The notes under the pieces are model-generated. The model did no database searches and had not been told where the DNA came from. It saw nothing but the letters and a program-made list of their open reading frames with translations. A DNA stretch of 64,000 nt from Betaproteobacteria bacterium CG2_30_68_42 (GTDB lineage: Bacteria > Pseudomonadota > Gammaproteobacteria > Burkholderiales > Rhodocyclaceae), in the NCBI GenBank assembly GCA_001872285.1, contig MNXU01000076.1, forward strand, positions 1-64,000, in the 5' to 3' direction. The position numbers and the translations under genes were made by a program. Below, in pieces: positions 1 to 15,643 of the stretch. Each line of letters starts with the position of its first letter. Within the stretch, counting starts at the first letter, position 1.

Positions 1-39
1 CGGGGTCGGCGACTGGACGGCGTTCGCGGGCGGTCGCAT
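1..39 (-). CDS. possible 5' end of the next gene of the Rnf operon (rnfD?), cut by window edge
   Basis: An ATG (complement of 37-39) opens a frame that stays open to the left edge and reads MRPPANAVQSPTP. It lies 29 bases after the rnfC stop, on the same strand. In canonical Rnf operons rnfD follows rnfC, so this could be its start, but 13 residues cannot identify it. The leader is purine-rich (GGGAG near 66-62, GGGG directly before the ATG). The assignment is inference from gene order only. Confidence 0.25.
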   Translation of the reverse strand, partial: MRPPANAVQSPTP

Positions 40-68
40 CCCCGCTGCGCGGGGCCCCTGCTCCCTGC

Positions 69-1409
69 TCACGCCGTCGCCCGCTCGCGCAGCACCTGCT
101 TGGCCACGCGGAAGCTCTGTACCAGCGGAATGCCCGACGGGCACGCGTAGCTGCAGCAGCCGCACTCGAAGCAGTCGCCGAGGTGGAACTCGGACGCCAT
201 GCGCTTGTACTCGCGCCGCGCCGCAAGCATCCCCAGTGCGGAAGGGTTGAGTCCCATCGGACAGGACTCGACGCACTCCCCGCACTTGATGCACGGATAC
301 ACGCGCCGCCGCCCGGACGCCAGATCTTCGGCGCGCAGCACCAGCACGCCCGAGACACCCTTGGTCACCGGCGCATCCAGCGAGGCCACCGCCTGCCCCA
401 TCATCGGCCCGCCCAGCACGAGCTCGCACACGCAGCCGCGCGCGCCGGCGCACTCGAGCACGAAGGCGAGCGGCGTGCCGAGCGGCACGAGGTAGTTGCC
501 CGGCCGCTCGACGCCAGCCCCGGCGACGGTCACCACGCGCTCGATCAGCCCTTCGCCGGCCGGAAGCAGCCGCCCCAGCGCGACGAGCGTACCGACGTTG
601 TTCACGACCAGGCCGAGCGAGATCGGCAGCGCGCCGGAGGGTACCTCGACCCCGAACAAAGCGATGATGAGCATCTTCTCGGAGCCCTGCGGATACTTGG
701 TCGGCACCTGCTCAACCGCAATGCTCCCGTCATCCGGCAGGACGGCGCGGATCGCCTCGGCGGCATCCGGCTTGTTGTCCTCGACACCGATCACCGCGAG
801 CGGCGCCCCGCAGGCGCGCATCGCGGTGCGGGTGCCGGCGATGAGATCCGCGGCCCGCTCGACCATCAGGCGATGGTCGCAGGTGAGATAGGGCTCGCAC
901 TCGCAGCCGTTCACCACCAGCGCCTGGACCGTCGCGCCCTTCGGCACGGCGAGCTTGGCGTGGCTGGGGAAGGCGGCGCCCCCCAGGCCGACCATGCCGG
1001 TGTCGCGGATGGCGGCCACGAGCTCGGCCGGCGCCAGGGCGTCGGGGTCGCGCGGATTTCGCCACAGCACCTCCTGGCCCGAACCCTCGTGCACACGGAG
1101 GACGATGGATTGCATCCACGGGCCGCGCGCGGAGGGGCGCAGCTCGATCGCCTCGACCACGCCGGTGGCAGGCGCATGCTGCGGCACCGAGAGCCAGCCG
1201 TCGGCCTCGGCGATCGGCTGGCCGCGCACCACCTCCTCGCCGGCGCGCACCAGCGGCTTCGAGGGCTTGCCGATGTGCTGCGAGAGCGGCACCACCAGGC
1301 GCGGCGCGAAGGACAGCCTGCGGATCGGCCGGCTCGCCATCTCCTTGTGCGCGGCGGGATGGATGCCGCGCGCGAAGGTCTCGCCGCGAAAATACGACAG
1401 CAGCTTCAT
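69..1409 (-). CDS. rnfC: RnfC-like electron transport complex subunit
   Basis: Encodes 446 residues from the start MKLLSYFRGE. In Rnf complexes RnfC is the peripheral subunit that binds NAD(H) and FMN and carries two [4Fe-4S] clusters, linking NADH to ferredoxin-level carriers. Visible motifs are the nucleotide-binding GLGGAAFP (residues 141-148), NGCECEPYLTCD (about 167-178) and two ferredoxin motifs, CIKCGECVESCP (373-384) and CFECGCCSYACP (413-424). The length matches compact RnfC proteins without the long Ala/Lys-rich tail of gammaproteobacterial RsxC. An ATG at 1544 is also in frame, but it would overlap the upstream oxidoreductase by about 94 bases and adds a low-complexity stretch, so the start at 1409 is preferred. 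The gene follows the PFOR-like gene by 41 bases and belongs to the same operon. Confidence 0.9.
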   Translation of the reverse strand: MKLLSYFRGETFARGIHPAAHKEMASRPIRRLSFAPRLVVPLSQHIGKPSKPLVRAGEEVVRGQPIAEADGWLSVPQHAPATGVVEAIELRPSARGPWMQSIVLRVHEGSGQEVLWRNPRDPDALAPAELVAAIRDTGMVGLGGAAFPSHAKLAVPKGATVQALVVNGCECEPYLTCDHRLMVERAADLIAGTRTAMRACGAPLAVIGVEDNKPDAAEAIRAVLPDDGSIAVEQVPTKYPQGSEKMLIIALFGVEVPSGALPISLGLVVNNVGTLVALGRLLPAGEGLIERVVTVAGAGVERPGNYLVPLGTPLAFVLECAGARGCVCELVLGGPMMGQAVASLDAPVTKGVSGVLVLRAEDLASGRRRVYPCIKCGECVESCPMGLNPSALGMLAARREYKRMASEFHLGDCFECGCCSYACPSGIPLVQSFRVAKQVLRERATA

Positions 1410-1450
1410 CCGCGCGGGCCGGGACAGGCGGACACGGTCTTCGCCCCCAT

Positions 1451-4400
1451 TCAGTGATACTTCGCCGCGCGGACGACGAGCTTGTCCAGTCCCGGCTCGG
1501 ATGGATTCCAGGGTGTGCCCGGATGGATGCAGCCCGCGGTGCACTTCTCCGCCGCCTTGACGATGTCGGCATAGCGCCCGCCCTTCGGGTCGATCACCCG
1601 CGCGTGCTTGCTTTCGTCATAGGCGAAGACCTTCGGAGCCAGCGCGGTGCACTCGTCGCAGGCGGTGCACTCGGGCGAGTCCACCCAGGCCGGCTCGAAA
1701 TCGGCGGCCGCAGCACCCGCAGCCGCGGCCGGCGCCACAGGCGCAGCCACAGGCAAGCCGGCGCCCCCGATCCGGGCCAGGGTGGAGGCGAGTTCCTCGA
1801 CCACCTGTGCGCGCGCGCGGCTCGCGATTCCCTCCTCGTCCAGGCCGGTGCGGTCCAGCCCGGCGAGCCCCTTGAGCTGCCGCCACAGCCGCAGCCGCTC
1901 CTCGGTCGCGCGCACCATCTCCGGGCTCACCAGCAGCCGGACGAGCCGGTTTCTGGCATCAACCGCCCAGAGGAAGGGAACCCGGCCCTCGCGCGCATCC
2001 TCGGACAGCTCGAGGAAATCGGCCAGCGCGATCATGTCGTCGTTCCAGGTCTCGGGAGGCGCGGGCCGGAACTGCTTGGCGAAGCGCGCCTCGCCCGCGG
2101 CGAAATCGGCGAAGGTCATCGCCACTTCGAGCGCACCCTCGGAGCCGTCCTCGTTCCGATACGCGAGGCGCAGCCGCGGCCAGTCCGAATCCGGCGACGG
2201 ATTGCCCTCCAGGCTCACGCACTCCTGGAAGCGAACGCCGGCATCGGGGTCGTAGCGGAACAGCGGATAGGCGCGCGATTCGACCGCGATGCGCGAGCGC
2301 TCCACCGCCTGATCATCCGCCACGCCGTGCTCGGGCGGACACACGGCATAGAGGTTGAACAGCGCCGGCCGGCGGCTGTTCAGCCCGTCGATGAAGCCCT
2401 CGATGAGATGGGTGGGGTGCGCGACCGACCCCTGGAGCACGAATGCGGTGCGGTGCGCCGCGGCCACCAGGCTGATCTCCTTGCGCGTCTCCTGCTTGCC
2501 GTGCTTCGCCGCGCCCCAGGGCGCCATGTCGGAGACCTGGCCGATGAACCCCGAGGTGCATGCCTGGCCGCCGGTGTTCGAATACACCTGGGTGTCGAGC
2601 ACCACCACCTTGATCGGCATCCCGGAGATGAGCGCCCGCGACAGGTTCTGGAATCCGATGTCATACATCGCGCCGTCGCCCCCCAGCGACACCACCGGCG
2701 GGCACAGCCGCCATTCCTCCTCGCTGAATGCGTGCCAGTCGTAGGCGCGGAAGAAGGTGTCGTGAATCGCCGGGTCGTACTCTCCGGAGAGCTCCAGCTC
2801 GGCGCGTCGCACCACCTTGAACGCCTCCGCCATCTTGGCCATGTGACCCTCGAACACGCCCATCGCCACAGAGGGCGAATCCTGGAACAGATGGCTGGTC
2901 CACGGGAAGGGGTAGGGATTGTACGGGTAGGTCGAACCCCACACCGAGGTGCAGCCGGTCGAGTTGACCATCCCCATCTCGGCGCGCGCACTCCCGCCCT
3001 TGCCTTCGCGATAGCGGGCGCGCAGCTCGCGCAGCGCATCGAGCAGGCTCCCGGCAGAGCGCACCCATTGCGGATCCAGCATGGCCTCCGCCTTGCCTTC
3101 GGCGAGCCGGGCGGAGAGGCTGGCAAGGGTGAGATCGCCGCCGCGCGCTGCCGCCTCCGCCAGCGCGGAAGGCTGCGAGAGGTCGAGCGACTCGGTGAGC
3201 TTCATGCGAATGTGCTTCTCCAGCCGCTCGATGAGCTCGTCCAGCCGGGCGACGAAGGCCCTCACGCGCGGCTGCATCAGCGCGCGCACGGTGGCCGTGA
3301 ACAGATGGATCGCGGTCTTTTCCCCGCAGCCCAGGCAGGCGCCGTCTCCGCATACCATTGCGGTGTAGTTGCGCTTGTCGAGCAGCAGCGTCTCCAGCGC
3401 ACCGATCTTCTCGTCCAGGCTGTCGATGCGGATGTACTCGGGCGGCGTCGTCGGCAGGTCGAGCCAGAAGCGCCAGTCGCGGCGCAGCCGCTCCACGCTC
3501 GCGCTCGTCTGCGGCACCATCTCGAGCGCGTCGTCCTCGCACACCTCGACGCACAGGGCGCAGCCCTTGCACGTGTAGGGATTGATGCCGATGTTGAACA
3601 GCGCGCCGCTGCCCGGCGCCTTCTTCTCGCGCGTCGTGTAGTACGGCTTGGTGACCGCGAACCCGAACTCGCCCAACTGCGCGCGCAGCAACTCGAACTC
3701 GGCGGAGAGCTTGTCGCGTTCCTCTCCGGCGCGCCCGATCACGCCCTCGATTGCCGCATCCAGCAGTGCGCGCACATCCGGCGCCGGCCCGGCCATGATC
3801 GCGGCGCGCAGGTCCTTCTCGACCGCGCGCAGCGCGCGGCGCAGGTGACGGGTGGGGCGCCCGCCGGTCTCGACCCGTCTCAACGCAGTGTCCAGCACAT
3901 CGCCCACCGTGCTCACCAGCCCCGGCATGGCGGAGTCGGGGCAGGCAACGTAGCAGTTGCCGCAGGCGGTGCACTTCTCCGGCTTCCATGCCGGATGCTC
4001 GAAGCGGATCTGCGTGAGGTCGCGCAGCGCACCGGTGGCCGCCGGGATCACGGAAACGCCCACGAACGGGTCGGCGAGGATGTCGCCGCCCTTGCCTCCG
4101 GCATAGAAGCTGCCGGTCTCGGCCCAGAAGCGCTGCACGTCCGCCACTCCGCCGTCGCCCTCGGGCAGCCGCGCGAGCATCAGCGGCAGCCCGGCGCCGG
4201 CTTGCAGCGGCTGTTTCGCCGCAGCCGCTTCCTCCGGCTTCGCGCCGAGCTCGCGCAGCTCGCGGAAGCCGCGCTCCACCACCCGCAGGTTGTCCTCGAC
4301 CACACGCGCGCCCTTGCCCCCGAACTTGGCCTCCATCTGCGCCCGGATCGCGGTGAACAGCCGCTCCTCGGTCAGGCCGGCCTGCGCCATCACCGGCGAG

Positions 4401-6382
4401 GCGGCGAAGAACGCGCCCTGGAAGGCGTTGCCCTGCATGCGCAACTGCAGTTCCGGGTTGCTCGCCTCCTCGCGCGCGATGCGGAAGGCGTCCAGCCAGA
4501 ACACCCGGATGTCATGCTCTCGGATGTAGGCGCGGGCACGCTGCGGGAAGCTCGCCCAGACCTCGGACGCGCTCTCGTGCACGCTCTGGACGATGAACAC
4601 GCCCCCGCGTTTCAGCCCGGCGAGCGGATCGGAATGCTCGAACACGTTCGGGTCGGGCGAGATGGCCACATCGACGAAGCGGTACTCGCAGTTGATGCGG
4701 ATGCGCTCCGGCGCCGCCGACAGGTAATAGGTCGTGGGCTGACCCTTCTTCTCGGAGCCGTACTTTGGGTTGGCCCGGACCTCGTAGCCGAGCAGGTCGA
4801 ACAGGGTCACCGCGAGGTTCTTGCCGGTGGTGATCGCGCCCCAGCCGCCGACCGAATGGATGCGCACCGTGATCGCGCCCTTCGGCATCAGGTCCGGATT
4901 CTCGCTCCCATGCACGGAGAGCGCGGCGATGTGCGGGTAGGCATCGATGAGCCTCTGCTGGCGGATCTCTTCCTTCGGATTGGCCGGATGCGCGCGCACG
5001 AAATCGACCGACAGGTAGAAGAATCTGCGCTTCGCACCGCCGGGCAGCATGTTCTCGACCGCCCCGATCAGCGCCTCGGGCTGGAGATCGCGCGAACCGA
5101 GTCCGTAGCAGCCCGAATACAGCGCCGGCAGGTCGGCGATGCGGGCGAGGACCGGGTAGTCTGGATAGGGCGGTTCGGCGCCGCCGGCGGCACCGTTCTC
5201 CATACACTTGCCGAGCGCCGCGCGCAGCTCGCGCATGAGCGGCAGATCCTCGGCGAGCGGCTGGTCGGTGCGCTCCAGCACCGTCACCGCCTTGCGCCCG
5301 CACAGCAGGTGCGCGAGCCGGTCGCCGGGGAAGGGCCGGTACATGGTGAGATTCACCACGCCCACCCGGATCCCGCGCCGCTCGCGCAGCCAGTCGGCAA
5401 CCGCCTGGGCCTGCACGATCATGCTGCCCATGCCGACCAGCAGATATTCGGCGTCCTCCGTCCGGTAGCCGCTCACACGCGCGTAGCGCCGGCCGGTGAG
5501 CTCGAAGTACTCGTCCATGCACCGTTCGGCCAGCGCTGCGACATGATCGAAGAAGTACGGCCGCTGCGCCGCGACCGCCTGCATGTAGGCATCCTGGTTC
5601 TGCACCACGCCGGACTGCATGACGTTGTCGACGTCCCAGAGCGCCGGCACGCGCCGGCGCCGCTCGCCGTAGAGCAGCCGCTGGGCCTCCGTGGGCGGTT
5701 CGATCGAATCCTCCGGCCGCCCGAGATATTCGGCGATCAGCTCGCGCTCGGGCAGGCGCACCGATTCGATCAGGTGGGTGGTGAGGAACCCGTCCTGGGC
5801 GACGATCGCGGGCGTGAGCGAGAGTTCCGCGGTCTTGCGCGCGATGAGGTTGAGGTCGGCCGCCTCCTGGGCATCGGCGGCCATCACCTGGATGAAGCCG
5901 GTGTCATCGACGCAGTGATAGTCGTCGTGCGCGCAATGCACGTTGAGGCTCGCCTTGGTGATTGCCCGGCAGCCCATGTTGAGCACGTACGGCAGCCGCT
6001 TGCCCGCGGCCGCGTAGAGCGACTCGTGCATGAAGGCCACCCCCTGCGCGGAGGAGAAATTGGTCGCGCGCAGCCCGGTCATCGCCATGCCCGCCGTCAC
6101 CCCGGCGGCGGCATGCTCGCTCTCGGGCTCGACGAACATCAGCTTGCGCCCGGACACGTTGATGTGGCCGCGCGCCGCCGCCTCGGCCCAGTATTCCCCC
6201 ATCTGGGTCGAAGGCGTGATCGGATAGGCGCCTGCCGCATCGGAGGCCTCGCGTTCGCAGGCGATGACCGCGGCGTTGCCATCGACGGCCTCGCGCACCC
6301 CGGGGTAGCGGAAGGTTCTGGCCCCGGCGCGGCCGCCGGCCGAGCGCTCGAGCAGCTTGAACTCGCGCAGCTTCCTCAGCAT
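1451..6382 (-). CDS. giant pyruvate:ferredoxin (2-oxoacid) oxidoreductase-like protein with extra C-terminal ferredoxin-like domain
   Basis: Encodes about 1,643 residues; typical NifJ/PFOR is about 1,170-1,200. The family oxidises pyruvate and CoA to acetyl-CoA and CO2 using TPP and passes electrons through Fe-S clusters to ferredoxin or flavodoxin. Visible in order: pyrimidine domain YPITPSTQMGEYW (about 53-65), gamma domain with HSVGGWGAITTGKN (about 500), [4Fe-4S] motif CTACGNCYVACP (about 801), second motif CKGCALCVEVC (about 935), TPP-domain CLGCGEKTAIH (about 1012), GGDGAMYDIGF (about 1231) and DTQVYSNTGGQ (about 1267). The two ferredoxin motifs are 134 residues apart, against about 56 in DvPFOR as I recall it, and about 100 helical residues interrupt the TPP domain. 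After an Ala/Pro-rich linker, a ferredoxin-like module (CTACDEC about 1569, CTAGC about 1611) ends the protein. The ATG at 6382 is preferred over 6397 because GGGAG sits 7 bases upstream. The substrate is inferred, not shown. Confidence 0.85.
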   Translation of the reverse strand: MLRKLREFKLLERSAGGRAGARTFRYPGVREAVDGNAAVIACEREASDAAGAYPITPSTQMGEYWAEAAARGHINVSGRKLMFVEPESEHAAAGVTAGMAMTGLRATNFSSAQGVAFMHESLYAAAGKRLPYVLNMGCRAITKASLNVHCAHDDYHCVDDTGFIQVMAADAQEAADLNLIARKTAELSLTPAIVAQDGFLTTHLIESVRLPERELIAEYLGRPEDSIEPPTEAQRLLYGERRRRVPALWDVDNVMQSGVVQNQDAYMQAVAAQRPYFFDHVAALAERCMDEYFELTGRRYARVSGYRTEDAEYLLVGMGSMIVQAQAVADWLRERRGIRVGVVNLTMYRPFPGDRLAHLLCGRKAVTVLERTDQPLAEDLPLMRELRAALGKCMENGAAGGAEPPYPDYPVLARIADLPALYSGCYGLGSRDLQPEALIGAVENMLPGGAKRRFFYLSVDFVRAHPANPKEEIRQQRLIDAYPHIAALSVHGSENPDLMPKGAITVRIHSVGGWGAITTGKNLAVTLFDLLGYEVRANPKYGSEKKGQPTTYYLSAAPERIRINCEYRFVDVAISPDPNVFEHSDPLAGLKRGGVFIVQSVHESASEVWASFPQRARAYIREHDIRVFWLDAFRIAREEASNPELQLRMQGNAFQGAFFAASPVMAQAGLTEERLFTAIRAQMEAKFGGKGARVVEDNLRVVERGFRELRELGAKPEEAAAAKQPLQAGAGLPLMLARLPEGDGGVADVQRFWAETGSFYAGGKGGDILADPFVGVSVIPAATGALRDLTQIRFEHPAWKPEKCTACGNCYVACPDSAMPGLVSTVGDVLDTALRRVETGGRPTRHLRRALRAVEKDLRAAIMAGPAPDVRALLDAAIEGVIGRAGEERDKLSAEFELLRAQLGEFGFAVTKPYYTTREKKAPGSGALFNIGINPYTCKGCALCVEVCEDDALEMVPQTSASVERLRRDWRFWLDLPTTPPEYIRIDSLDEKIGALETLLLDKRNYTAMVCGDGACLGCGEKTAIHLFTATVRALMQPRVRAFVARLDELIERLEKHIRMKLTESLDLSQPSALAEAAARGGDLTLASLSARLAEGKAEAMLDPQWVRSAGSLLDALRELRARYREGKGGSARAEMGMVNSTGCTSVWGSTYPYNPYPFPWTSHLFQDSPSVAMGVFEGHMAKMAEAFKVVRRAELELSGEYDPAIHDTFFRAYDWHAFSEEEWRLCPPVVSLGGDGAMYDIGFQNLSRALISGMPIKVVVLDTQVYSNTGGQACTSGFIGQVSDMAPWGAAKHGKQETRKEISLVAAAHRTAFVLQGSVAHPTHLIEGFIDGLNSRRPALFNLYAVCPPEHGVADDQAVERSRIAVESRAYPLFRYDPDAGVRFQECVSLEGNPSPDSDWPRLRLAYRNEDGSEGALEVAMTFADFAAGEARFAKQFRPAPPETWNDDMIALADFLELSEDAREGRVPFLWAVDARNRLVRLLVSPEMVRATEERLRLWRQLKGLAGLDRTGLDEEGIASRARAQVVEELASTLARIGGAGLPVAAPVAPAAAAGAAAADFEPAWVDSPECTACDECTALAPKVFAYDESKHARVIDPKGGRYADIVKAAEKCTAGCIHPGTPWNPSEPGLDKLVVRAAKYH

Positions 6383-6393
6383 CGCTATCTCCC

Positions 6394-7272
6394 TCATGGT
6401 CGTCCCGCGAGCGGCAGGTCGCTCACCCGCAGGATCTTCTTCGCCGCGGCACCGCGTGCAACGCGATCGCCGTCCTCGATCCAGACGATGGCTCCGGTCG
6501 GACAGCGCTCGATGGCCTTGCGTTGCGCCAGATCGTTGCGCGCGTAATCGATGACGGCCAGATTATTGGCCAGCGCCACCAAACCCGGTGCCGAATCGCT
6601 CACGCACTTGCCGCAGGCGGTGCAGGCCACTTCGCACTGCGCCTCGGCGGTATCGCCGTCGGCGAGATTCCGGCACGCGACCCACAGCTCGCGGCTCACC
6701 GGCTCCAGCGAGAACAGGCCCTTGGGGCAGACCTCGACGCAGTCGTTGCAGGCGGTGCAGCGGTCGGGATCGACCACCGGCAGGTCGTGTCGATCCATCC
6801 GGATGGCATCGAAGGTGCAAACCTCCGCGCAGTCGCCCAGGCCCAGGCATCCCCACGGGCATGCCTTGCCTCCGCCGGCAACCGCCGCCGCGGCCCGGCA
6901 GCTCGCCAGCCCGTCATAGCGGGCATTGCGCCAGGCGACGTTGCGCCCCCCGGCGCAGGAAAGGCGCGCCAGCCGTTGTTCCTGCTCGCCCACCGCCACG
7001 CCCAACCGGTCCGCGATGAGCGCCCGCTGCTCGGGCGCGGCTACCGTACATTGCACGGGCTGGGCGGCGCCGCCCACCAGCTTCTCGGCGAACACGCGAC
7101 AGCCGGGAGCGCCACACGCGCCGCAGTTCGACTTCGGCAGCATGGCCTCGACCTCGTCGATGCGCGGATCCTCGACCACCCGCAGCCGCCGGTTCGCCAC
7201 CGCGAGAGCCACCGCCAGACCGAGGCCGAGCACCGCCATGAAGCTGCCGGCCAGCGCGACACCCTGCAACAT
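6394..7272 (-). CDS. rnfB: RnfB-like multi-cluster ferredoxin subunit
   Basis: Encodes 292 residues with one N-terminal membrane anchor (about 5-26). RnfB is the membrane-anchored Fe-S subunit that receives electrons from ferredoxin. The RnfB-specific motif SNCGACGAPGC with a later Cys (C50, C53, C58, C75) is present, followed by CPWGCLGLGDCAEVC (138-152), CTACNDCVEVC (172-182) and further cysteines at 200, 213, 217, 220, 223 and 257. In all there are 20 cysteines, enough for several [4Fe-4S] clusters. This resembles the long RnfB of anaerobes rather than the roughly 190-residue RsxB of enterobacteria. The start at 7272 has AGGGGGG five to six bases upstream. The stop lies just before the oxidoreductase start, so the two genes are probably translationally coupled. 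Confidence 0.9.
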   Translation of the reverse strand: MLQGVALAGSFMAVLGLGLAVALAVANRRLRVVEDPRIDEVEAMLPKSNCGACGAPGCRVFAEKLVGGAAQPVQCTVAAPEQRALIADRLGVAVGEQEQRLARLSCAGGRNVAWRNARYDGLASCRAAAAVAGGGKACPWGCLGLGDCAEVCTFDAIRMDRHDLPVVDPDRCTACNDCVEVCPKGLFSLEPVSRELWVACRNLADGDTAEAQCEVACTACGKCVSDSAPGLVALANNLAVIDYARNDLAQRKAIERCPTGAIVWIEDGDRVARGAAAKKILRVSDLPLAGRP

Positions 7273-8954: not shown

Positions 8955-11024
8955 TCAGAGTCTGGAGATGTCGGCGATCTGCCCCATCAGGCCCGCGAGC
9001 TCCCGCAGCATCGCCAGGCGGTTCGCCCGCGTGAGCGGCTCCTCGGCCATGACCAGGACATCGTCGAAAAAGGCATCGACCGCCGCGCGCAGGCCCGCCA
9101 GGTGCTTGAGCGCGCCGGCATAGTCCTCCGCAGCCACCAGCGAACGCACCAGCGGCGAGATCTCGTTCATCTCGCGGAACAGCCGGCGCTCCGCCGCCTC
9201 CTGGAACAGCGCCACGTCGATCCCGGCGGCGACCGCGTCCGCCTTCTTCAGGATATTGACGATGCGCTTGTTGGCGGCGGCGAGCGCGTCGGCTTCGGGG
9301 GCCGCGCGGAAGGCCGTCACCGCGGCGAGCCTGGCCGGCACCAGATCGACGCGCCCGGGCCGCAACGCCAGCACGGCCTCGATCACTTCCGATGCATGGC
9401 CAGCTTCGCGCAGCAGGTGACGCAGGCGCTCCAGCATGAAGTCGAACACTCGCACGCGGACCGCATCGCCGGTGTCGATGGCGGCCGGATAGCCGCTCGC
9501 GGCCGCAGCCACCAGCTCGCCGAGGTCGAGCGGCAGCGGCGTCTCGATGAGGATGCGCAACACGCCGAGCGCGGCGCGGCGCAGCCCGAAGGGATCGCGC
9601 TCTCCGGTGGGCACCTCGCCGATCGCGAACATCCCGATCAGCGCGTCGAGCTTGTCGGCGAGCGCCACCGCGCAGGCGATGTTGCCCTCCGGCAGGCGGT
9701 CGCCTGCGAAGCGCGGCCGATAGTGCTGTTCGATCGCGTCCGCGACTGGATCCGGCTCGCCGCCTGCGAGCGCGTAGTAGCGGCCCATGATGCCCTGCAG
9801 CTCGGGGAATTCCCCGACCATGCCGGTGACCAGATCAGCCTTGGCGAGCCGCGCGGCGCGCTCGATGCGCGCGAGGTCGGCGCCAACGCGCCGCCCGATG
9901 ACGGCGGCGAGCCTCGCCAGCCGCTCGACGCGGCTGCCCTGGCTGCCGAGGCGGTTGTGATAGACGACACCGGCCAGCCGGCGGGCGTGCTCGGCGAGCG
10001 GCGTCTTCTTGTCGATCTCGAAGAAGAACCTGGCATCGGCGAGCCGCGGCCTTACGACGCGGGCGTTGCCGGCCACGATGTTGACCGGATCGGCGACCTC
10101 CATGTTGGAGACGACCAGGAAACGGTTGGTGAGCCTTCCGGCCTTCATCAGCGGGAAGTATTTCTGGTTCGCCTTCATGGTCAGGATCAGGCATTCCTGC
10201 GGCACCGCGAGAAATGCTTCGTCGAAGCCCGCCTCGTAGACCGCCGGCCATTCCACCAGCGCGGTGACCTCGTCGAGCAGCGCCTCGTCCTGCAGCCATT
10301 CGGCCTCGCCCGCGGCCGCATCGAGCAGCGCTCGGATCCTCGCGCGACGCTCGTCGAACGAGGCGATGACCTTCCCCTGCGCGGCGAGCACGATGGCGTA
10401 GTCCTTCGCATGCGGCAGGACGATGTCGCCCGTGCTCATGAAGCGGTGGCCGCGCGTGAGGTTGCCGCTCGCATGCCCGAACACCGCGCCCGGCACCACA
10501 CGGGGGCCGTGCATCATGACCAGGCCATGCACGGGCCGCACGAACTGCGCCTCGCCCGCGCCCCAGCGCATGAGCTTCGCCACCGGCAGCTTCTTCAGCG
10601 CAGCCTCGACCATGGCGCCCAGGTACGCGTCGATGCGCTCGCCACGCTTCTCGATGCGCGCGACGAAATACTCGGCCTTGCCGTCGCGAATGCGCCCGAG
10701 CGCTCCGAAGGTGACGCCGGCCGAGCGCATGAAACCCTCCAGCGCCCTGGTCGGCCTGCCTGCCGTGTCGACCCCGGCAGCCACCGCCGGCCCCTTGCGC
10801 TCGATGACGCGGTCGGGCTGGGTGTCGAGGACATCGTCGAAGCGAACCGCCAGCCGCCTCGGAGTCGCAAAGAAGATCGGGTCGCGGCCGGCGGCTTCGG
10901 GGCTCAGAAATCCCGCCTCCAGAAGCGAATGCCGCATCTGGTTCGAGAACTCGGCCGCCAGTCGAACCAGCGACTTCGGCGGCAGTTCCTCGGTGAGCAG
11001 CTCGACCAGCAGGGTATCGCGCAT
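8955..11024 (-). CDS. glyS: glycine--tRNA ligase beta subunit
   Basis: Encodes 689 residues, the usual length for bacterial GlyS. It pairs with GlyQ in the alpha2-beta2 glycyl-tRNA synthetase; the beta subunit carries tRNA-binding and HD-like domains. The start [19 protein letters not shown] is the classic GlyS N terminus, and the ATG lies one base after the glyQ stop. An in-frame ATG at 11162 would add 46 low-complexity residues overlapping glyQ and is rejected. The C-terminal part ([20 protein letters not shown]) matches the anticodon-binding-like region of the family. Confidence 0.97.
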
Positions 11025-12144: not shown

Positions 12145-13296
12145 TCAGAAGCGGCGGTAGAGCCAGTACTTCTCGTACAGGAGCTTGCCCAGGTGCCAGA
12201 GCCGCCTCGGCTCCCGTATCACCACCCGGGGCAGCGGCTCGGCGTAGAAATCGCCCTTGCCGATGCCGGCGCGGCCCAGGCCAGTCTCGATGAAGCACAT
12301 GCCCTCGCCGGTGAACGTCCTCGCCTCGCCCCGGCCGGTCCAGGCGCGGGCGATGTTGTGCGCCACCGTCTCGGCCTGGGCATGGGCGAAGACACCGGCC
12401 TTGGGCAGCGGCTTTCCCATCGCGAGCGGAATTGCGACGATGTCCCCGATGGCGAAGACCCACTCGAACTTCGTCTGCATCGTGTGACGGTCAACAGGGA
12501 TCCAGCCGGCTTCATTGGTCAGGCCGGCTTCGCGCACGACCGCCGGCGCCCGGTGCGGCGGCACATAGAGCAGCAGGTCGTAGTCCGCCGTCACGCCGTT
12601 CGCGAAGGAAATGCGCCGGCTTGCGGGATCGATCTCCCTGACCTGATGTTGCGGGTGATAGGCGATGCCCCGCGCCTCGATCATGCCGCGCACCGCGGCG
12701 CCGCCCGCCGGGCCGATCACCGGCATCGGCTGGGGCTCGGCCGCGAAGAACTCGATCGTGGTCTTGTCGCGCAGGCCGCGCTTGTGCAGGAAGGCCTCCA
12801 CCAGCAGCGCCGCCTCGTAGGGCGCCGCCGGACACTTGTAGGCGGGTGTGGCGGTGAGCAACACGATGCGCCCGCCTGCGAATCGGGACAGGGCGTCGCG
12901 CACCTTCGTCGCACCTTCCATGGTGTAGAAGTCGAAACCCGCATCGGCCAGTCCGGGGACGGCCTCGGGCGCGTAGTCTGCACCGAGCGCGATCACCAGC
13001 GCATCGGCGGCGAGCGTCTGGCCGTGGAGCGTCACCTGGCGGCGTTGCGGCTCGATCCGGGTGATGTCGCCCTGGCGCAGTTCGACGCCGCGGGCCGCCA
13101 GGCGGCTCAGCGGGCGCGTGAAGTCTTCCGGTCGCCGCTCGCCGACCATCAGCCAGAGCAGCGACGGCGGGAAGAAATGGCGGTCATTGCGATCCACCGC
13201 GATCACGCGGTCCTGCGCGGGCAGGAGCTTGCGCAGCGTCCCGGCGGCGGCGAGCCCCCCGAGACCGGTGCCGAGTACGAGGACGCTATGCGCCAT
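12145..13296 (-). CDS. sulfide:quinone oxidoreductase-like FAD-dependent oxidoreductase
   Basis: Encodes 383 residues. The family oxidises sulfide and reduces quinone at the inner membrane. The FAD-binding GTGLGGLAAA (about 9-18) opens the protein, YKCPAAPYEAALL (C155) matches the conserved SQR cysteine region, AIGD (about 282-285) is the second FAD motif, and the C-terminal WHLGKLLYEKYWLY fits the membrane-binding helix. Only two cysteines are present, C155 and C334. Well-studied SQRs use three redox-relevant cysteines, so the first is missing. The ATG shares its first base with the stop of the DsrE-like gene upstream, so the two are co-translated. A role in sulfide or polysulfide handling is inferred. 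Confidence 0.8.
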   Translation of the reverse strand: MAHSVLVLGTGLGGLAAAGTLRKLLPAQDRVIAVDRNDRHFFPPSLLWLMVGERRPEDFTRPLSRLAARGVELRQGDITRIEPQRRQVTLHGQTLAADALVIALGADYAPEAVPGLADAGFDFYTMEGATKVRDALSRFAGGRIVLLTATPAYKCPAAPYEAALLVEAFLHKRGLRDKTTIEFFAAEPQPMPVIGPAGGAAVRGMIEARGIAYHPQHQVREIDPASRRISFANGVTADYDLLLYVPPHRAPAVVREAGLTNEAGWIPVDRHTMQTKFEWVFAIGDIVAIPLAMGKPLPKAGVFAHAQAETVAHNIARAWTGRGEARTFTGEGMCFIETGLGRAGIGKGDFYAEPLPRVVIREPRRLWHLGKLLYEKYWLYRRF

Positions 13297-13649
13297 CAGA
13301 ACACCAGCACCTTGTCGGCCCAGGCGCTCCAGGCGCCGAGGATCTCCATCGTGCCACGGGAAGCGCATTCCACGAGCTCGCCCTCGGCGATGCCGCGCGC
13401 ATCGATGCAGGTGCCGCACACGCCGATTTCGGCGCCTGCCCGAGCGACCCCGCCCAGCATGTCGCCTGCGTTGTAGTAGCCCTGCGGAACCTTCTGCCCG
13501 GCTTTGGTCGCGGACACGGCATCGCCCATGAGGAAGATCCTGAGCTCATGGCCGCCGGCCTTCAGCATCTGGCGCGCAAGGCGCAGCGCGTTGTAGGTGC
13601 GCTCGCCGCCGTAGGGTGCTTCGTTGAGGATGAAAAGGAACTTGCTCAT
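13296..13649 (-). CDS. DsrE-family sulfur-relay-like protein
   Basis: Encodes 117 residues of the DsrE/DsrF-like fold. The family carries persulfide sulfur between enzymes. FLFILNEAPYGGERTYNALR is the typical N-terminal strand and helix. Cysteines at 78 and 81 (GVCGTC) and 95 sit where persulfide-carrying cysteines occur in relatives. The gene is first in a two-gene operon with the SQR-like enzyme, which suggests it takes sulfane sulfur from it. GGGAGG precedes the ATG. Regulation is suggested by the palindrome overlapping its promoter. Confidence 0.85.
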   Translation of the reverse strand: MSKFLFILNEAPYGGERTYNALRLARQMLKAGGHELRIFLMGDAVSATKAGQKVPQGYYNAGDMLGGVARAGAEIGVCGTCIDARGIAEGELVECASRGTMEILGAWSAWADKVLVF

Positions 13650-14107: not shown

Positions 14108-15643
14108 GTGACCGCCCGTGCATCCGACGCAGCGGTGAGCGCCGCACCCAGGCCCAGCAGCACCATTGTGCTGCTGGCGGGACTCACCCTCCTGCTCTTC
14201 GCCCTGCGCGTATCCGGTCCGTCCGACCTGACGGACAACGACCAGGAACGGCCGGCCGCCTACGTGATGGACGTGGTGCTGCACGGCCACTGGTGGTGTC
14301 AGACGGACTGGACCGGAGAGGTCATGTCCAAGCCCCCGCTGTTTACCTGGATCGCAGCCCTGGCGACGCTTGCGGCCGGACACGCCAACCTCTGGTCACT
14401 CTATTTTCCCGGCCTCGTGGCCATCGCCCTGACGGTCGTGCTGCTGTTCTTGTTCGGGCGAAACCGTTTCGGATGGGCAGCCGGATTCCTCGCCGGTCTC
14501 CTGTATCTGGTCTCTCCGGCGGGCGCGAAGCACATCGCACTGGCGCGCACCGACGGGCTGTTCGCGGCCACCGTTGCGCTGACAGGACTGCTCGGCTTCC
14601 TCGCGTGGCAGCGCGGGCGTGGGTGGACGGGATTCTGGCTGGCCGCCGCACTCGCCACACTGACGAAAGGCCCGCTGGGTGTTCTGCTCGGGTCGATGGG
14701 AATGCTCGCGGTGATCTGGGAAAGGTTCGATCGCCGCAGCACCGGCCGCCGCCACGACACACGCACCGCGGACGTCGAGCGTGCGTCGCGTCTGGGGCCG
14801 GCGCACCTCATCGGGATCGCGCTGTTCCTGACCATCACCCTGGGTTGGTTCTGGCTGGCCTATCAGCAATGCGGGCAGGGATTCATCGCAAAGGTGGTGG
14901 GGCGCGAACTCGTCGCTCACGTGGTGAGTCCGGAGCACGGCAGCTTCGGCATCGGCTTCGTGAAAGCGCCCTTCTACTGGCTCACGCGGTTTCTTCCCTG
15001 GAGCATCGTGGCCCTCGTGGGCCTGTTGCGAGTGTGGATGCATCCCGCGGCAGACGAGATGGAGCGGCGCTTCGAGCGGTTCCTGTTCTGCTGGCTGCTT
15101 GGAGGACTCCTGATCTTCTCGCTGGCGACCCATCAGCGCGGCGATCTTCCGCTGCCCCTCGATCCCCCCGCCGCGCTGCTCGCCGGCCGGGAAATCGCCC
15201 GCTGGCTGAGGCACTGGACGTCGAAACAGCTCCTGCTGCGCGCTCTGGCGACGGCAGTTCTGGTGTTTGGCGCGTACGCGCCGTATCTGCATGTCGTCTT
15301 TGCTCGAACCTCCGAGGCAAGACGATCCGAAGGCATCCAGTCATTGGCCCGACGGCTGGCAGGCGATTCCAGCCTGCCACCGTTGCTGCACGTGGATGAC
15401 CCGTACGCCTTGCAGTTTCATCTCAACGCCATGAATCGGGCCGTCAGCTTCGAAGCCGCGGCGAGGGCCCTGGCCGCTGAACAGCCCCGCTCCGTTGCGC
15501 TCACCGATGTGGCGGCCCTGCGCAGCGCCGTGGGCGGGACGACGACGCTCTACCGGCTGAGCACCTGTTCCGCCAGTGAGAAAGATGCGTCGGTCACGAT
15601 CTTGTCCAATCGGCCCGCCGATGCGCTCCGGTGCCGCCGGTGA
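14108..15643 (+). CDS. ArnT/PMT-like membrane glycosyltransferase
   Basis: Encodes 511 residues from a GTG (VTARASDAAV). The protein is a multi-pass membrane enzyme of the ArnT/dolichyl-phosphate-mannose transferase type (GT-C fold), which uses polyprenyl-phosphate sugars in the periplasm. SGPSDLTDNDQER and the first loop carry the acidic residues expected for catalysis, WTGEVMSKPPLFTW matches the KPP motif of ArnT-like enzymes, and about ten hydrophobic segments follow. Donor and acceptor are unknown; lipid A or another cell-envelope target is possible. GGAG lies about 11 bases before the GTG. Longer starts (13979) run into the lnt fragment region and are less likely. It is the only plus-strand gene in a minus-strand block and is bracketed by two lnt 3' ends, which suggests insertion. 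Confidence 0.75.
   Translation: MTARASDAAVSAAPRPSSTIVLLAGLTLLLFALRVSGPSDLTDNDQERPAAYVMDVVLHGHWWCQTDWTGEVMSKPPLFTWIAALATLAAGHANLWSLYFPGLVAIALTVVLLFLFGRNRFGWAAGFLAGLLYLVSPAGAKHIALARTDGLFAATVALTGLLGFLAWQRGRGWTGFWLAAALATLTKGPLGVLLGSMGMLAVIWERFDRRSTGRRHDTRTADVERASRLGPAHLIGIALFLTITLGWFWLAYQQCGQGFIAKVVGRELVAHVVSPEHGSFGIGFVKAPFYWLTRFLPWSIVALVGLLRVWMHPAADEMERRFERFLFCWLLGGLLIFSLATHQRGDLPLPLDPPAALLAGREIARWLRHWTSKQLLLRALATAVLVFGAYAPYLHVVFARTSEARRSEGIQSLARRLAGDSSLPPLLHVDDPYALQFHLNAMNRAVSFEAAARALAAEQPRSVALTDVAALRSAVGGTTTLYRLSTCSASEKDASVTILSNRPADALRCRR

Follow-up and report, generated by a model that had tools for sequence, protein, structure and literature searches.

The stretch analysed here, referred to as the window, comprises 64,000 nucleotides (positions 1 to 64,000 of the forward strand of contig MNXU01000076.1, or C3) of Betaproteobacteria bacterium CG2_30_68_42, whose genome assembly holds 3.1 Mb in 95 contigs. 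It opens with three minus-strand genes: rnfB, a gene for a single-chain pyruvate:ferredoxin oxidoreductase (PFOR)-like enzyme, which we call PFORx, and rnfC (Table 1). A preliminary description had read them as RnfB-like, 2-oxoacid:ferredoxin oxidoreductase-like and RnfC-like genes in this order with gaps of at most 41 bases, and the coordinates and family matches bear this out: PFORx overlaps rnfB by 4 bp if its first ATG (6397) is used, and is separated from rnfC by 41 bp. As six of the eight homologues compared from the same class (class I below) begin at the sixth residue, PFORx may instead start at 6382, with no overlap with rnfB; in the profile scans, rnfB and rnfC were read from starts slightly further upstream. 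The genes do not run off the left edge, as had been described, given that rnfC stops at 69 and window base 1 is base 1 of the contig.

Table 1. Features of the rnfB-PFORx-rnfC locus (window coordinates unless a locus is named)
Feature	Position	Strand	Description
rnfB	6394..7272	minus	long type, 292 amino acids (aa), Acetobacterium/Clostridium-like, 20 cysteines
PFORx	1451..6397	minus	single-chain PFOR-like enzyme, 1648 aa, fused C-terminal ferredoxin
POR_N thiamine diphosphate (TPP)/substrate domain	5555..6247	minus	PFORx residues 51-281; T61, E94, R144
POR (gamma) domain	4265..4849	minus	PFORx residues 517-711; Pfam
Two CxxCxxCxxxC motifs (809-819, 943-953)	3518..3994	minus	PFORx residues 802-960; two predicted [4Fe-4S] clusters; cysteines 86/86
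TPP-binding domain, GDG and YSNTGGQ motifs	2198..2980	minus	PFORx residues 1140-1400
Ala/Pro-rich linker	1706..1771	minus	PFORx residues 1543-1564; AlphaFold2 model residues 754-775, pLDDT <50; probably flexible
Single-cluster ferredoxin tail	1454..1690	minus	PFORx residues 1570-1648; C1577, C1580, C1583, C1619; Fer4_13
rnfC	69..1409	minus	446 aa; flavin mononucleotide (FMN)/NADH (Nuo51-like) domain, SLBB, two CxxCxxCxxxC motifs
111-bp tandem repeat, start	1..69	minus	terminates contig C3; same unit opens C5, then rnfD-G-E-A
FNR-like gene, examples	L089 19878-20738; L138 19386-20243; L048 17752-18600		after rnfA

Because the window starts at a contig end, the operon is cut by the assembly, and the preliminary description had pointed to the sequence left of base 1 as the place to look for rnfD, rnfG, rnfE and rnfA. 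A search of the genome with the RnfA/RnfE family gave four matches, two of which lie at the start of contig C5, where rnfD-G-E-A extend from base 233 to 3318. The 46 bases at 24-69, unique in the window even with up to 3 mismatches allowed, are part of the tandem repeat with which C5 opens (bases 1-229, L041; 2.1 copies of 111 bp, 98% matches). No exact overlap between the ends of C3 and C5 was found; they are joined here on the strength of the shared repeat and are most likely neighbours, so that rnfC and rnfD would be separated by a short tandem array that interrupted the assembly. All six subunits of an Rnf complex are therefore predicted to be encoded, RnfB and RnfC in the window and RnfD, RnfG, RnfE and RnfA on C5. 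The remaining two matches belong to a second, classical Rnf, with rnfA, a 183-aa short RnfB and rnfC on contig C23 and rnfD-G-E on C58.

The same gene order, which the preliminary description had proposed to look for in other genomes, does recur. In G010, a relative whose genome is a single contig, rnfB, PFORx, rnfC, rnfD, rnfG, rnfE and rnfA follow one another without interruption. PFORx of this class is found in 13 of 101 related genomes, the source genome included, the main pieces of the others being 66-70% identical; rnfB lies upstream in 11/11 of the regions retrieved from the 12 others (all but G025). The gene was read in pieces in G001, G025 and G043, and an internal stop was read in G001 and G050. 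A wider collection search by family alignment confirmed 566 relatives, and the locus counts given here rest on the best 80 of these, whose hosts belong by record title to the Pseudomonadota, Bacteroidota, Acidobacteriota, Myxococcota, Verrucomicrobiota and Hydrogenedentota, although a large share consists of metagenome bins that may be mislabelled. rnfC starts less than 1 kb downstream of PFORx in 66 of the 67 loci with at least 1.5 kb of room, so that chance is not an issue, and the complete C-D-G-E-A series is present in 53/54 loci with at least 6 kb downstream. rnfB is placed less than 1 kb upstream in 64 of the 75 loci with at least 1 kb; among the remaining 11, five from Bacteroidota carry it after rnfA, and none was seen in the retrieved stretches of L123, L131, L135, L136 (Bacteroidota by title), L099 and L114. 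The last of these (2247-6647) is also the sole downstream exception: its PFORx stops short of the tail, the stretch shows no rnf genes, and the case may represent a natural unlinking or a broken gene. Over 56 loci, pairwise distances of PFORx correlate with the distances of every Rnf subunit at r 0.66-0.89 (largest value in 200 permutations 0.16), and part of this correlation is plain descent. The class is widespread and not common, as an even draw of 398 genomes from the phylum contains it in only three, the source genome included. By record title, the hosts include the isolates Thiocapsa roseopersicina, Marichromatium gracile, Sulfurisoma sediminicola, Shewanella atlantica and Algoriphagus kandeliae. 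Two further genes were seen in Bacteroidota loci: a gene of about 120 codons just 5' of PFORx in L129 (9599-9958), L132, L135 and L138, whose product in L129 matches no Pfam family at E 0.01, and, in A. kandeliae, a gene for a Kor-like 2-oxoacid oxidoreductase alpha-gamma chain after rnfB (L129, 21217-23109). Neighbour counts for korA were excluded, as the query cross-matches PFORx.

PFORx itself has the domains of a PFOR (Pfam E-values: POR_N 1.6e-48, POR 1.3e-27, PFOR_II 4.6e-13), followed by a ferredoxin domain (Fer4_13, 3.1e-8). Its best solved relatives by sequence are PFORs (E 1e-78), which are pyruvate enzymes, while its score against the PFOR family model TIGR02176 is 388 bits, far below the cut-off of 911, which marks it as a divergent relative and not a plain NifJ. 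Residues T61, E94, R144, L151, V153 and N1274 align with T31, E64, R114, L121, I123 and N996 of the Desulfovibrio africanus enzyme, and these six, together with the TPP GDG motif, are invariant in 86/86 rows of an alignment composed of 78 of the 80 listed loci and 8 others (2 of them duplicates, leaving 84 distinct; L114 and L118, which are incomplete, were omitted). N1274 presumably matches N996 via the YSNTGGQ motif, and the roles of these residues, including substrate contact, are taken to be those of the classical enzyme. The 16 relevant cysteines fall into four sets (809/812/815/819, 943/946/949/953, 1021/1024/1149/1353 and 1577/1580/1583/1619), the first twelve being conserved in all 86 rows and the four of the tail in 85 or 86 each. 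Three internal [4Fe-4S] clusters, of which the proximal one would be held by C1149 and C1353 with C1021 and C1024, and a fourth cluster in the tail are predicted on this basis. Compared with the solved PFORs of Moorella thermoacetica (6cin) and D. africanus (1b0p/7plm), PFORx is alike in domain order, TPP and substrate residues and three cysteine sets, but is some 416-477 residues longer than the solved chains; besides the tail, it appears to have extra segments ahead of C1149 and between the two ferredoxin motifs (numbering from the alignment). Residues 790-1648 were modelled with AlphaFold2 (mean pLDDT 79, pTM 0.79), and the model matches Moorella PFOR with Z 29.8 and an rmsd of 4.1 over 439 residues; VIA-align of the model gave no row for the tail, its list being filled by the enzyme body. 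The tail is predicted to fold like D. africanus ferredoxin I (1fxr; 38% identity over 58 columns, rmsd 0.7, TMt 0.86), with the difference that it is covalently part of the oxidoreductase. This built-in ferredoxin, which the preliminary description had not noted, is, in our view, the strongest sign in the sequence that PFORx would be hard-wired to its acceptor.

The Rnf proteins encoded around PFORx carry hallmarks of their family. RnfC, RnfD, RnfE and RnfA exceed their NCBIfam cut-offs (RnfC: 476 bits against TIGR01945, cut-off 246), whereas RnfB and RnfG do not. RnfB is closest to solved proteins of the Acetobacterium woodii and Clostridium tetanomorphum type (9eri_B, E 2.2e-53; 7zc6_B, 3.3e-47), compared with 3e-9 for 8ahx_B, which we take to be the Azotobacter structure. 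Across the 56 loci in which each of the seven genes reads in a single frame across 80% of its length, all 20 cysteines of RnfB, both CxxCxxCxxxC motifs of RnfC and two cysteines each in RnfA and RnfE are invariant (56/56). Sequences that may be flavinylation-type motifs occur in RnfG (AGATVTS) and RnfD (TGAT) of the source genome; a pattern beginning with S or T occurs in 50/56 RnfG rows and in 0/56 RnfD rows, for which it is ill-suited. In comparison with the Rnf complexes of A. woodii and C. tetanomorphum (9eri, 7zc6), the six subunits, the long RnfB and the RnfC motifs are the same, but here PFORx forms a seventh gene between rnfB and rnfC, and an FNR-like flavoprotein gene follows rnfA in 33 of the 52 named loci with room for it (Pfam on three examples, Table 1). 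This gene was not found in the C5 stretch of the source genome.

PFORx is one of several related classes, which differ in their neighbours. A tree of the N-terminal region with 50 rows separates class I, that of the window (25 rows), class II (7), the split class III (9) and classical PFOR (9) each by one branch, the branch to classical PFOR being very long; four PorA rows were too short and omitted, and the tool warned that classes II and III have long branches that join. Tree, score and tail together rule out a plain NifJ identity for PFORx, which differs from PFOR/NifJ in forming a separate clade and in having its gene inside an rnf operon. A ferredoxin-like tail is likewise present at the C-terminus of class II enzymes (in L057 by Pfam, in L174 by cysteine motif only). 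The four class II loci examined all have a gene for an NfnAB-like flavoprotein directly after that of the oxidoreductase (932-956 aa in L055, L057 and L174; truncated where the contig stops in L056); in this flavoprotein, Fer4_20, Pyr_redox_2, NAD_binding_1 and DHODB Fe-S domains are joined in a single chain; NfnAB transhydrogenase thus resembles the neighbour of class II and not that of the window's class I. The class III relatives are split in two chains, and the tail motif is absent from the three beta chains inspected (L170, L173, L177). At class III loci (L168-L177), recR-like and, in some, sucCD-like genes lie nearby, as judged by eye from their first residues. A further lineage is represented in G007 by a 722-aa protein (L059, 7079-9247, minus strand; homologue in L058), which resembles the PFORx C-terminal half with the tail retained but the TPP motifs lost; its gene is grouped with two genes for Nfn-like proteins and with those for Kor-like beta and alpha-gamma chains, and the product looks like an electron adapter. 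In this small sample, the tail tends to accompany a fixed flavoprotein or membrane partner, which we read as the main sign that it would serve as a plug to a dedicated acceptor.

In the model that we propose, the operon would encode one dedicated redox module. PFORx would use TPP and coenzyme A (CoA) to decarboxylate a small 2-oxoacid, most probably pyruvate, and the two electrons would pass through its three internal [4Fe-4S] clusters to the fourth, which, in the linker-tethered ferredoxin domain, could swing to RnfB and so replace a diffusing ferredoxin. From RnfB, electrons would cross the Rnf core, reach the FMN in RnfC and finally reduce NAD+, while Na+ or H+ is moved outward, as is established for the Rnf family and assumed to hold here. 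The net result would be conversion of pyruvate, CoA and NAD+ to acetyl-CoA, CO2 and NADH with ion export, that is, the pyruvate dehydrogenase reaction. The drop from the pyruvate/acetyl-CoA couple to NAD+ is about 180 mV in standard potential, and it would be stored as an ion gradient and not lost. The path should be reversible, and we think that the oxidative direction is the main one, since it would save energy and since carbon in Calvin-cycle autotrophs flows from pyruvate to acetyl-CoA. The presence of rnfD-G-E-A, the recurring gene order and the retention of PFOR catalytic residues and cluster cysteines support the suggestion of the preliminary description that a dedicated path leads from a 2-oxoacid via Fe-S carriers to NAD(H). 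We consider it likely that PFORx is functionally coupled to the Rnf of its operon in one direction or the other. For the proposal as a whole, namely a hard-wired, reversible path from pyruvate to NAD via Rnf, in which the tail hands electrons to RnfB, mainly in the oxidative direction and with formation of an ion gradient, we estimate a probability of about 0.5. More tentatively still, PFORx could be a true seventh subunit of a distinct Rnf, a reversible ion-pumping pyruvate:NAD+ oxidoreductase in which electrons always stay on bound carriers, and it would belong to a family of 2-oxoacid enzymes with a tethered ferredoxin that plugs into exchangeable partners, namely Rnf (class I), an NfnAB-like flavoprotein (class II) or, in one lineage, a separate adapter made of a dead beta domain and a tail.

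Several observations weigh against this proposal. RnfB falls just under its family cut-off (TIGR01944, 68.1 against 68.7 bits) and RnfG further below its own (78.7 against 102 bits), no promoter or terminator was found upstream of rnfB by a simple scan, and the match of the tail to 1fxr is weak by Foldseek (rank 33, E 0.028). At the Solemya velum gill symbiont locus (L112), the PFORx tail (14566-14906) and part of rnfB (9337-9955) lie in other frames, and decay and sequencing error cannot be told apart as the cause. Where an FNR-like gene follows rnfA, electrons may also exit to NADP. Besides PFORx, the source genome has genes for a split PorABC-like enzyme and for another 2-oxoacid oxidoreductase of two subunits. 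Finally, an aceE-type pyruvate dehydrogenase coexists with PFORx in 12/13 PFORx-bearing genomes (78/88 among the other relatives of the 101), so that PFORx is not needed as its replacement. A role as a substitute for missing pyruvate dehydrogenase is accordingly rejected; in the source genome no match to the aceE-type family was found, and other E1-type matches are present.

Among the alternatives, the one that survives best is that the same module runs mainly in reverse, with NADH and the ion gradient driving electrons via RnfB and the tail into PFORx, which would then carboxylate acetyl-CoA and so act as a pyruvate synthase. The oxidative step is already served by pyruvate dehydrogenase in the 12 genomes just mentioned, and several of the named hosts are sulfur lithotrophs or purple sulfur bacteria with no easy source of reduced ferredoxin. 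RuBisCO, too, is associated with PFORx: it is present in 12/13 genomes with the enzyme and in 29/88 without it when matches above 300 bits are counted (p 6e-5), a line chosen after the matches were seen, and in 12/13 against 36/88 when all matches are counted (p 6e-4), both p-values overstating the association because the genomes are related; within the same family, the proportions are 11/12 and 17/49. A 2025 Rnf review describes Rnf as able to run in reverse (PMC12174285), and in a study on Kentron symbionts highly expressed PFOR genes, which may or may not belong to this class, are interpreted as carboxylating (PMC6593406). Against a mainly reverse direction stands the carbon flow of Calvin-cycle autotrophs, which runs from pyruvate to acetyl-CoA, and hosts such as Algoriphagus and Cecembia are aerobic heterotrophs. 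Matches to the isocitrate lyase family (one of them weak; isocitrate and methylisocitrate lyase not separated) in 12/13 PFORx-bearing genomes likewise weigh against it, since acetate assimilation would not obviously depend on PFORx; a role of PFORx as a stand-in for the glyoxylate shunt is unsupported for the same count. Taken together, we regard the reverse direction as a serious but rather unlikely alternative to the mainly oxidative path.

It is improbable, in our judgement, that the genes are merely co-regulated, such that PFORx reduces a soluble ferredoxin pool, with the tail as an extra electron store, and Rnf serves this pool (e.g. for nitrogenase or other ferredoxin-dependent reductases). 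Classical PFORs do use diffusing ferredoxin, co-transcription would not prove contact, and the second, classical Rnf of the source genome indicates that not every Rnf complex of that organism is tied to PFORx. The near-exclusive linkage across six phyla by title speaks against a shared pool, however, as does the presence of the tail in both partner-linked classes, and the single unlinked copy, L114, perhaps a broken gene, is also without a tail. Least probable is a substrate other than pyruvate (2-oxobutyrate, an aryl pyruvate, oxaloacetate or 2-oxoglutarate), for which the low TIGR02176 score and the long branch from classical PFOR could be cited, but the positions thought to contact the substrate in PFOR are kept and the best solved relatives are pyruvate enzymes.

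The arrangement has been reported once. In the Solemya velum symbiont, PFOR genes lie between rnfB2 and rnfC2, and pyruvate was proposed as a possible Rnf donor (PMC4287430); in the portion of that paper available, the treatment amounts to one sentence of inference on the arrangement of the rnf2 operon, which is also that of symbiont locus L112. The phrase 'undescribed system' in the preliminary description was thus too strong, as both the gene order and the idea of pyruvate as donor were in print. We found no mention of a PFOR gene between rnfB and rnfC in the available parts of the 2025 review (PMC12174285) or of a paper on rnf operon layouts (PMC4014512), nor a description in those of PMC6593406, PMC11636981, PMC6315080 and PMC3534657. 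In the open-access literature, to which the search was directed and outside which most subscription papers fall, PMC4287430 was the only report found on this order, and no study of the enzyme, its fused ferredoxin or its distribution was found. In the Riftia symbiont, one PFOR isoform, which may or may not be the Rnf-linked one, rises under oxygen limitation, and the authors leave its direction open (PMC11636981). Elsewhere in the window, a gene for a sulfide:quinone reductase-like flavoprotein (12145-13649, minus strand) adjoins a DsrE-family gene.

Pyruvate dehydrogenase wastes energy between pyruvate and NADH. If the proposal is true, a membrane-coupled energy-saving enzyme, or a gradient-driven pyruvate synthase, would alter how energy is budgeted in animal symbionts, purple sulfur bacteria and sulfur lithotrophs. 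The handling of low-potential electrons in such organisms would become testable, and PFORx, whose hosts include isolates, would be a clean example with which to study channelled electron transfer.

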